Below are positions 13,728 to 17,496 of a stretch of DNA of 64,000 nt, piece after piece. The stretch lies in contig NZ_CP036261.1 in NCBI RefSeq assembly GCF_007741475.1, positions 5,891,798-5,955,797 of the forward strand, in the 5' to 3' direction. The notes below the pieces were generated by a model. It was not told the origin of the DNA and did not search any database. It was given only the letters and a program-made list of their open reading frames with translations. Each line of letters opens with the position of its first letter. The stretch's first letter is position 1. This stretch comes from Rosistilla ulvae (GTDB lineage Bacteria > Planctomycetota > Planctomycetia > Pirellulales > Pirellulaceae). Position numbers and translations under genes: made by a program.

Positions 13728-13994
13728 GCGAGCGCGACACGGAGGACCAGGATCCCAATCCCCCGAAGACGGTCGAGACAAAGTGTGCCCCCAGATGTGC
13801 GTTCGTGACGAACTGGCGCGCGACAAGACTTGATCGAGCGCTCGCAGAGCGATTGCTATCCCCCCGGCTCCGCTGAAGCGAAGGAAGAAGCCGGAAGACC
13901 ATTCTACGGAAGCAGAGCACTATCGCCCCCAAATGGCGAACCGGCTCTGAAGAACTGTTGGCAAATGACGCACTTTTCACCGCCCCCCCAAAGA

Positions 13995-14010
13995 TGGCAC
14001 AGCCTTTGCT
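13995..14010 (+). promoter_or_regulatory. sigma-54 (-24/-12) promoter
   Basis: TGGCACAGCCTTTGCT fits the sigma-54 consensus TGGCAC-N5-TTGCW at every defined position. Predicted transcription start is about 14021. It reads toward the csrA/tRNA-Glu block on the opposite strand. Confidence 0.6.
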
Positions 14011-14020
14011 ATAAGTCTCC

Positions 14021-14200
14021 CCGCACACAAATTTCACGAAAAGGGATTGGCAATGTTCAAACGGCGGCACGACGGAGAGGAACGGAGGCTGTTGCCGGCG
14101 AGCGAGAAGATATCCCGTGGCCAGAAGGAACGCGGCTGCGGAATAGGCACAAAAAAACCCAGCGTTTCCGGCTGTGGAAGCCAAAGAAACGCTGGGCTTA
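14021..14200 (+). ncRNA. candidate GGA-rich RNA downstream of a sigma-54 promoter (or small mRNA)
   Basis: The 180 nt after the predicted start contain seven GGA motifs (near 14043, 14074, 14079, 14084, 14127, 14139 and 14176), against about three expected at random. Three are spaced 5 nt apart, and one sits in the loop of a GGCT/AGCC hairpin. GGA in loops is what CsrA binds, and csrA lies 350 nt away. Alternatively it is an mRNA: AAGGGA is 6 nt before an ATG at 14053, opening a basic 113-residue frame to 14394 that reads antisense through the tRNA and is unlike a conserved protein. The 3' end is unknown; the hairpin at 14158-14196 lacks a T-run on this strand. Confidence 0.3.
14151..14196 (-). 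terminator. Rho-independent terminator after tRNA-Glu
   Basis: On the minus strand an 11-bp perfect stem (14186-14196 with 14158-14168, CCCAGCGTTTC) is followed by seven T residues (14157-14151). It lies 15 nt beyond the tRNA 3' end and probably ends a csrA-tRNA-Glu or tRNA-only transcript. Confidence 0.85.
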
Positions 14201-14210
14201 AGTCAATTAA

Positions 14211-14283
14211 TGACCCCAATGGGGTTCGAACCCATGTTGCCGCCGTGAAAGGGCGGAGTCCTAGGCCGCTAGACGATGGGGCC
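14211..14283 (-). tRNA. tRNA-Glu (TTC anticodon)
   Basis: The minus strand folds as a 73-nt tRNA. The acceptor GGCCCCA pairs with TGGGGTC (one G-U), the anticodon stem CCGCC/GGCGG holds a CTTTCAC loop with anticodon TTC, and the T-arm ATGGG-TTCGAAC-CCCAT is canonical. The discriminator base is A. The CCA end is not encoded. A strong terminator follows. Confidence 0.96.
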
Positions 14284-14549
14284 GCGACAAGACAAGGTTT
14301 ACCAAAGCGAGGGCCAGACCGTCAAGGGGCTCGGCACAAAATTCGCAGTTGGTTCCTGAAATTCGATATCGGGTCGGCTCAAGCGGAAACTTAAACCAAT
14401 GTTTGTCAGATTCTATCAAAAAACGAAAATAGATCGTCAGCCCCACCGAGTGGGTTATGACGCAGCGACTGCTGCGGTGGCAACGAGTCAACAGCCCCCA
14501 GGTTTAGGTGGGAATGATGTTTCATCGGACCGCATGGAAGCAGAGCGAA

Positions 14550-14747
14550 TTAGCCATCGACCGATTCAGCGGAATCGTCTTGCTGGCTTCGTTGAATCGC
14601 ATCGTAGACTTCGCGGCGATGAACCGGCACTTCGCGAGGCGCTTCCACCCCAAGCCGTACCTTATCGCCACGGATCTCGACGACAACGATACGAATATCA
14701 TTGTTGATTACGATGCTTTCGTTTTTCTTACGTGATAGCACTAACAT
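14550..14747 (-). CDS. csrA: carbon storage regulator CsrA
   Basis: 65 residues from the ATG at 14747 (AAAGGA 8 nt upstream). [51 protein letters not shown] is a complete CsrA, including Arg6, the [11 protein letters not shown] core and the VHR(R)EVY signature with Arg44-type contact. The dimer binds GGA in mRNA leaders to block or alter translation. Its own Shine-Dalgarno overlaps a GGA and follows a GTGAC/GTCAC hairpin (14761-14774), the arrangement expected for autoregulation. tRNA-Glu lies downstream on the same strand. A longer start at 14783 would add 12 residues and is not needed. Confidence 0.95.
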
Positions 14748-15969: not shown

Positions 15970-15985
15970 CGGCACCACAGTTGCT
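15970..15985 (+). promoter_or_regulatory. sigma-54-type promoter upstream of the sigma-54 activator gene
   Basis: CGGCACCACAGTTGCT matches TGGCAC-N5-TTGCW except for the first base. Predicted start is about 15996, leaving a 142-nt leader before the activator gene at 16138. An inverted repeat CAAGCT (15911-15916)/AGCTTG (15930-15935) lies 35 bp upstream and could be an enhancer. The remainder of the gap 15771-16137 is empty. Confidence 0.5.
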
Positions 15986-16137
15986 GCATGATCCCACCGG
16001 GGTTCTTCTCGCAGCTCGATTGTCGATGCAATTTCGATCACACCGGCTTCCGCCGACACGCTGCGCACCGGGGAATCACACGCGGATGTCCTGGCAGACA
16101 TCGCGGCCGTTCTCATCGAATTCAGGTGCTGCAATCC

Positions 16138-17496
16138 ATGACGAATAGGACACTCGATCCCCACGAGCCGCGCAGGGTGCTGTTGGTCGATGCTGCTGGC
16201 AAAGAACGCGACGCAACATCGCACTGGCTAACGCAGCGAGGGGACTGCGTTTCGACCGTCGCGACAACAGCCGAAGCGAACCGAATGACTGCGGCCCAGC
16301 GGTTTGACATCGTAGTCCTCGCACTCGAAGATCCCGCTCCCGAAGCGTTGACACTGATTACCCAACTGCGGTCCCAAAACGCGTCACTTCCGATTCTTGC
16401 AATTTGCCGTGACGCGTCGATCGCCGCAGCCAGCGATGCAATACATACCGACAAGTGCGACTTTCTCGTTAAACCGATTGCCTTGGATGATTTGGAATCG
16501 GCAATTCGCAAGATCAGCCGAACCGACGCGGTCCCCAACGGCAACAAACGCCAAACGCCCAAACCGCGAATCCGCCGCAGTGTGTCGCCGATCATCGGCA
16601 AATCGGTGGCGATCGAAGTGGTACATCAATGGATCGATCGCGTCGCCCCCTGCGAGATGCCGGTATTGATCGAAGGGGAAAGCGGGACGGGCAAAGAGTT
16701 GGTGGCGAGCGAAATCCATGCGGCCAGCCGCGTGGCCGACCGACCGATGATCACGATCAATTGCGCCGCGGTCCCAGCAACGCTACTGGAAAGCGAATTG
16801 TTCGGTCACGAAAAGGGAAGCTTCACCGGTGCGATCGCTACCAAACGCGGACTGTTTGAAATGGCCGATGGCGGCACTTTATTTGTCGATGAACTGGGCG
16901 AACTTGCCGGTGACTTGCAAGCCAAACTGCTGCGAGTGCTTGAGGATGGTCGAATCCGGCGCGTCGGATCGACTTGTGAACGCCAAGTCCATGTCCGCTT
17001 GCTGGCAGCGACGAACAAAAGGTTGGCCGACGAAGTCCGCGCCGGACGGTTTCGCGAAGACCTTTTCTACCGCATCAACGTGCTCGGAACCCGGCTGCCA
17101 GCACTCCGCGAACGGTCCGACGACATCGGTTTGTTAGTTGCGCATTTCCTAGGGCCCGGATGGACGCTTGGGGTTGGCGTCCTGCCGGTACTGGAACGCT
17201 ACACTTGGCCTGGAAACGTGCGGCAACTGAGCAACGCGATCGAACGATCAAAGGTCTTGTCGGCCGAACCGGGAATCGTTTCGGTCGATGATCTGCCCCC
17301 CGAGATCGTCGCCGCAAGCGGCGACCAACGGGTAGAAATCGGTGGCGACATCGACCTCGAAACAATCAACCGATCGCATGTATTAAAAGTCCTCCAACAG
17401 CACCGCGGCAACAAAGCCAAAACAGCGCGTGTGCTGGGCATCAACCGGCGTTCGTTGTACCGACTGCTAGACAAATACGGAGCCAACCAACGCTAA
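16138..17496 (+). CDS. sigma-54-dependent transcriptional activator with degenerate receiver
   Basis: 452 residues from the ATG at 16138, NtrC-like in layout. Residues 12-125 form a receiver domain in which the position of the phosphoacceptor Asp is Ala62 (FDIVVLALEDP) and only one of the usual two acidic residues is kept (Asp18); the Lys remains (FLVKP, Lys112). The AAA+ domain (about 150-385) has Walker A GESGTGKE (180-187), the sigma-54 contact loop as GSFTGA (227-232), Walker B GGTLFVDE, and the R-finger region (DLFYRINVL). A Fis-type helix-turn-helix ends the protein (AKTARVLGINRRSLYRLL). No histidine kinase is adjacent. The domain should drive open-complex formation by sigma-54 polymerase, but control cannot be by ordinary aspartyl phosphorylation. 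Confidence 0.9.
   Translation: MTNRTLDPHEPRRVLLVDAAGKERDATSHWLTQRGDCVSTVATTAEANRMTAAQRFDIVVLALEDPAPEALTLITQLRSQNASLPILAICRDASIAAASDAIHTDKCDFLVKPIALDDLESAIRKISRTDAVPNGNKRQTPKPRIRRSVSPIIGKSVAIEVVHQWIDRVAPCEMPVLIEGESGTGKELVASEIHAASRVADRPMITINCAAVPATLLESELFGHEKGSFTGAIATKRGLFEMADGGTLFVDELGELAGDLQAKLLRVLEDGRIRRVGSTCERQVHVRLLAATNKRLADEVRAGRFREDLFYRINVLGTRLPALRERSDDIGLLVAHFLGPGWTLGVGVLPVLERYTWPGNVRQLSNAIERSKVLSAEPGIVSVDDLPPEIVAASGDQRVEIGGDIDLETINRSHVLKVLQQHRGNKAKTARVLGINRRSLYRLLDKYGANQR

Follow-up and report, generated by a model that had tools for sequence, protein, structure and literature searches.

A sigma-54 promoter conserved in Rosistilla and a candidate short RNA facing tRNA-Glu and csrA

Introduction

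Qrr and GlmY are small RNAs that depend on sigma-54 (RpoN), and the Rosistilla locus described here resembles theirs in having a short RNA, predicted in our case, downstream of an intergenic sigma-54 promoter. A sequence relation to these RNAs was looked for through Rfam alone, where tRNA was the only match. The CrcZ, CrcY and CrcX RNAs of Pseudomonas are described in the excerpted text of PMC8657755 as dependent on RpoN and CbrB, and they share with the present element a short non-coding RNA (again predicted here), a sigma-54 promoter and an activator of the NtrC type. According to that excerpt CrcZ and CrcY sequester Hfq-Crc, whereas no conserved decoy motif was seen in the Rosistilla RNA. 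In its mode of action, the predicted RNA would come closest to CrcZ and other small RNAs that depend on sigma-54.

CsrB, CsrC, RsmY and RsmZ, as covered in the excerpted text of a review (PMC7652899), show a different likeness, namely several GGA motifs in one short region and CsrA in the genome, but the GGA motifs at our locus are not conserved and the same genome encodes FliW, a protein that antagonizes CsrA. The excerpted review text reports that fliW is anti-correlated with BarA-UvrY, a system on which Csr RNAs depend in many species, and states that it is not known whether FliW and Csr RNAs ever work together (PMC7652899). Planctomycetes are listed among the phyla that may use FliW in the available part of PMC4682653.

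Here we analyze a window of 64,000 nt from the marine planctomycete Rosistilla ulvae, for which an original prediction had placed a full sigma-54 consensus ahead of a GGA-rich transcript beside csrA and proposed that this transcript is a CsrB/RsmY-type sponge for CsrA. If transcribed, the element would provide a planctomycete case of a small RNA dependent on sigma-54, encoded next to csrA and converging on a tRNA gene; the titles and abstract openings of the literature we surveyed mention no comparable example.

Materials and methods

A search of 40 genomes for csrA yielded 30 loci, one per genome, of which 28 have a tRNA-Glu gene. The two loci without it (L038 and L055) were left out, and the remaining 28 comprise three from the genus and 25 from outside it. 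The genus sample consists of three species: that of the window and two congeners, referred to as G002 and G001. For the promoter search, 600 nt by the tRNA-Glu were scanned on the matching strand for sites with fewer than three mismatches, with GG and GC required; in L043 only 161 nt could be scanned, and in L039, where the orientation of the tRNA relative to csrA is reversed, the scan covered the csrA side. Four window widths (30, 40, 50 and 58 columns) were tried in the permutation test on the spacer. The start codon of the activator gene at 16138 was chosen within a longer open reading frame, 15988-17496.

Results and discussion

Table 1. Features of the csrA/tRNA-Glu locus (window coordinates)
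Feature	Position	Strand	Basis or remark
Second conserved stretch, candidate activator-binding site	13793-13822		holds GTTCGTGACGAAC; ~200 nt ahead of the predicted transcription start
Conserved island (promoter, start region, opening ~20 nt of the predicted RNA)	13983-14040	+	53/58 columns identical to G002
Sigma-54 (RpoN) promoter, TGGCAC-N5-TTGCT	13995-14010	+	TGGCACAGCCTTTGCT; exact consensus; GG 13996-13997, GC 14008-14009
Inferred short RNA, sigma-54 start to terminator hairpin	14021-14199	+	sequence geometry only; start from promoter geometry
Open frame from ATG 14053, judged not a gene	14053-14394	+	reads on through antisense tRNA-Glu; no NCBIfam match
Three-GGA cluster, 5 nt apart	14074-14086	+	not present at the aligned positions of G002 or G001
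Hairpin read as tRNA-Glu terminator	14155-14199	-	inverted repeat; A-run 14151-14157 gives a T tract on the - strand
tRNA-Glu (TTC)	14211-14283	-	ARAGORN, Rfam
csrA	14550-14747	-	PF02599, E 2.1e-26
Sigma-54-like site	15970-15985	+	CGGCACCACAGTTGCT; one mismatch; ~170 nt upstream of the activator gene
NtrC-type sigma-54 activator, candidate regulator	16138-17496	+	receiver PF00072, AAA+ PF00158 (E 4.3e-65), Fis-type HTH PF02954

The sigma-54 site at 13995-14010 (Table 1) has its GG and GC elements 10 nt apart and is the only exact match to TGGCACN5TTGCW in a pattern scan of the window. Across the whole genome (7,475,804 bases in one contig), which encodes one RpoN (PF04552, E 4.7e-62), we found 27 exact sites versus 8 for a reversed control pattern; by a rough test, 17 of the 27 lie outside and 10 inside long open reading frames. 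All 16 promoter bases are identical in G002, and G001 has the near-identical TGGTACGGGGTTTGCA in the same position, with the distance to tRNA-Glu being 216 nt in the window, 215 in G002 and 218 in G001. Within two mismatches, the promoter was found in three of three Rosistilla species and at none of the 25 loci from outside the genus, and it appears genus-specific among the loci compared. A search for the promoter followed by CGCACA in 60 genomes of the family, G001 not included, returned the window's genome and G002 only, and the pattern with the spacing of G001, applied to the three genus genomes, matched only that species' own site. The methyltransferase adjoining the locus led to six loci, none of them of the genus; the nearest of the six, L073, lacks a tRNA.

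At the DNA level, identity to G002 is 93% in the csrA/tRNA-Glu stretch and 67% over 424 columns in the spacer at 13728-14145. Outside two conserved stretches, the spacer identity is 166 of 287 columns (~58%). At widths of 40, 50 and 58 columns the best window is always located in 13982-14040, with 37/40, 47/50 and 53/58 identical columns and permutation p values of 0.007, 0.0004 and 0.0002, respectively. The best 30-column window is the second conserved stretch (29/30, permutation p 0.007), and the G001 locus lacks an exact copy of its palindrome. The palindrome GTTCGTGNCGAAC has five copies in the window's genome versus two for the control, and 15 versus 6 over the three genomes; with such copy numbers it is not specific, and we rejected it as a genome-wide binding site. 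The exact consensus, the retention of the site in all three Rosistilla and the permutation test together bear out the promoter claimed in the original prediction, whose placement of tRNA-Glu and csrA likewise agrees with ours, and judging from these sequence comparisons we conclude that the sigma-54 promoter is real.

From this promoter, an RNA would start near 14021, ~12 nt downstream, and run for ~175 nt toward the terminator hairpin of the convergent tRNA-Glu gene, the arms of which are 14155-14168 and 14186-14199. The plus strand has no U tract after the hairpin, which makes the 3' end of the RNA uncertain. A consensus terminator scan reported nothing at 14155-14199 on either strand and, as it misses even the terminator that we read for the tRNA, is no evidence either way. 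The RNA body (14021-14155) folds with a z score of -0.59 relative to shuffled sequences and the two congener bodies with -0.12 and -0.66; with the terminator hairpin included, the z score of the window's RNA is -2.46. The hairpin recurs in the window's genome (G000) at G000:C1:5413422-5413472 with 88% identity over 51 nt, and it is also part of a 75% match of 140 nt at G000:C1:7013175-7013314 that covers a tRNA-Glu-like stretch as well.

We class the element as a candidate sigma-54-dependent intergenic transcript. Our preferred explanation, to which we give a probability of about 0.42, is that the genus-specific RpoN promoter drives a short and largely non-coding plus-strand small RNA that acts through its 5' end. 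Selection would then fall on the promoter and on the 5' end, CGCACACAAAUUUCAC, which is mostly unpaired in the predicted fold, while the mostly non-coding body would be free to change, a pattern to be expected if a sigma-54-controlled small RNA acts through a 5' segment. A bacterial enhancer-binding protein would have to activate the promoter, for which the product of 16138-17496 is the natural candidate. We infer transcription, both RNA ends, the action of the 5' end and the choice of activator from the sequence. In favor of the small RNA are the conserved island, with 53/58 identical columns versus 166/287 in the remaining spacer, and the retention in G001 of CCGCACA, at the expected transcription start, and of TCAC in a spacer that can hardly be aligned elsewhere. 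Against it, G001 retains the 5' end only in part (CGCACA and TCAC, the intervening bases having changed), and the fold predicted for the window pairs the first bases of that end. Also against it are the body without structure beyond chance, the plus-strand hairpin without a U tract, a genus sample of only three species, and an ATG with a purine-rich stretch in the same place in all three, which would fit translation.

A rather unlikely alternative is antisense or colliding transcription, in which the sigma-54 polymerase would meet the convergent csrA/tRNA-Glu unit and lower the output of tRNA-Glu or csrA. The promoter is directed into both genes, nothing resembling a U tract follows the hairpin on its strand, and the promoter is conserved while the RNA body is not. 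The tRNA also adjoins csrA in 28 of the 30 loci, but this adjacency is far more widespread than the promoter, confined to the genus in our scan, and a collision needs no conservation of the first 20 transcribed nucleotides. Selection on the promoter and 5' end, combined with an unconstrained body and a terminal hairpin, would fit interference less well than a small RNA acting through its 5' end.

Less likely again is that the site is a binding site or relic that yields no functional RNA. The lack of a conserved product agrees with this, as do the 26 other exact sites in the genome and the share of the 27 that lies inside long open reading frames. It is opposed by the clear local conservation in a fast-evolving spacer and by the retention of the site in G001 where the surrounding spacer hardly aligns.

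The original prediction had itself offered a small mRNA starting at ATG 14053 as a competing reading, to be recognized by conserved codon structure. Measured from the first promoter base, the ATG is at a distance of 58 nt in the window, 57 nt in G002 and 58 nt in G001, and purine-rich sequence precedes it in each species; a non-coding reading does not account for either feature. Compared with G002 over 93 nt, however, the frame has one synonymous and 18 non-synonymous codon changes (null mean of 3.7 synonymous), and on this ground we rejected the small mRNA, considering its translation from ATG 14053 improbable. The frame runs on through the hairpin and the antisense tRNA, with lengths of 113, 113 and 65 aa across the three species. 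The ratio of synonymous to non-synonymous changes is 1 to 15 in frame 1 and best in frame 2 (7 to 10, permutation p 0.15), but in the window frame 2 contains no ATG, GTG or TTG beyond 14021, and in G001 a TAG closes it before the hairpin. A search of 40 genomes with the 35-aa peptide found it at this locus only in the window and G002 (E 0.007, residues 15-35); the other matches lie elsewhere than this locus, with E of 0.02 and up.

The candidate activator gene is found ~2 kb from csrA in all three Rosistilla species, with the same neighborhood in G001 and G002. Outside the genus, 23 genomes have an activator match (E up to 1e-100) and 20 of them also a csrA match. In none of these 20 do the two lie close together: more than 800 kb separates them in G012, G020 and G030, and the others have them on separate contigs, although many assemblies are in pieces and only matches with E up to 1e-100 were counted, so that a nearby relative could be missed. 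Set against the 93% DNA identity of the csrA/tRNA-Glu stretch, the window's activator is only 64% identical to the copy in G002. In an alignment of the three receivers, the position that we take, by eye from the usual receiver pattern, to be that of the phosphate-accepting Asp holds A, F and G. The receiver seems to lack this residue in all three species, and the activator may not be controlled by phosphorylation. Upstream of the gene, TTCGGCA-N5-GTTGC is kept in the three Rosistilla species, with one, two and three mismatches to the sigma-54 consensus in the window, G002 and G001, making autoregulation through 15970-15985 possible. A search for motifs shared by the regions upstream of both sigma-54 sites in the three species found AAAGTGTGC in four of the six: it precedes the 13995-type promoter in each species but the activator gene only in G002. 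This offers a weak hint of a shared binding site and is suggestive only, because related species share sequence by descent. The sites can be joined into a Rosistilla-specific circuit, a proposal we hold to be as improbable as the small mRNA, in which the activator would drive both its own gene, through the 15970-type site, and the 13995 RNA, and this RNA or the convergent transcription would adjust the output of csrA and tRNA-Glu.

As for the proposed sponge, the GGA motifs of the original prediction are present: 14021-14197 contains seven, at 14044, 14074, 14079, 14084, 14127, 14140 and 14176, including three spaced 5 nt apart, and four ANGGA. Among 177-nt pieces of the window the mean is 2.7 GGA, with at least seven GGA in 2.1% and at least four ANGGA in 0.09%, these counts being of features picked after the fact. 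From the start region through the terminator, the window, G002 and G001 have 7, 4 and 5 GGA and 4, 1 and 0 ANGGA, whereas an RNA that titrated CsrA would be expected to keep these motifs; the three-GGA cluster lies in the variable part. Over a fixed 260-nt stretch before the tRNA the numbers are 7, 4 and 7 GGA and 4, 1 and 1 ANGGA, the two additional GGA of G001 coming from sequence that precedes the RNA. At the 25 loci from outside the genus the mean is 4.7 GGA, against an expectation of 4.0; individual loci reach 8 or 9 GGA, and two have four ANGGA. The GGA described as lying in the loop of a small hairpin is there, and it is common to all three species, but we read that hairpin as the terminator of tRNA-Glu on the other strand and assign its loop GGA to the tRNA unit. 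Folding lends no support to GGA-bearing hairpin loops in the RNA body, the bodies folding no better than shuffled sequences, and an Rfam search matched only tRNA up to E 1 in 10-20 kb. The presence of FliW, taken with the anti-correlation of fliW and BarA-UvrY in the excerpted review text (PMC7652899), weakens the sponge without excluding it. Despite the nearby csrA and the four CsrA-family genes of the genome, we rejected a CsrB/RsmY-type CsrA sponge under sigma-54 control as highly improbable, since neither the number of GGA and ANGGA nor the GGA cluster is conserved, the body has no structure beyond shuffles and the other 25 loci show little excess of GGA. The RNA is not placed in the CsrB/RsmY family because the features tested failed; the GGA-rich stretch by csrA looks sponge-like in one genome and fails the comparison of three species.

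The four CsrA-family genes have open frames of 77, 101, 137 and 149 aa. The pairing of tRNA-Glu (TTC) with csrA is a wide one, seen in 28 of the 30 csrA loci sampled across the order. Looser sigma-54-like matches occur elsewhere in some of the loci, among them L038 of genome G032, one of those left out as its fetched stretch has no tRNA-Glu. At position 1899 on its minus strand it carries TGGCAAAGCATTTGCT, a single mismatch away from the sigma-54 consensus. This site is directed at csrA from ~235 nt upstream, and csrA itself may be under sigma-54 control in that genome.
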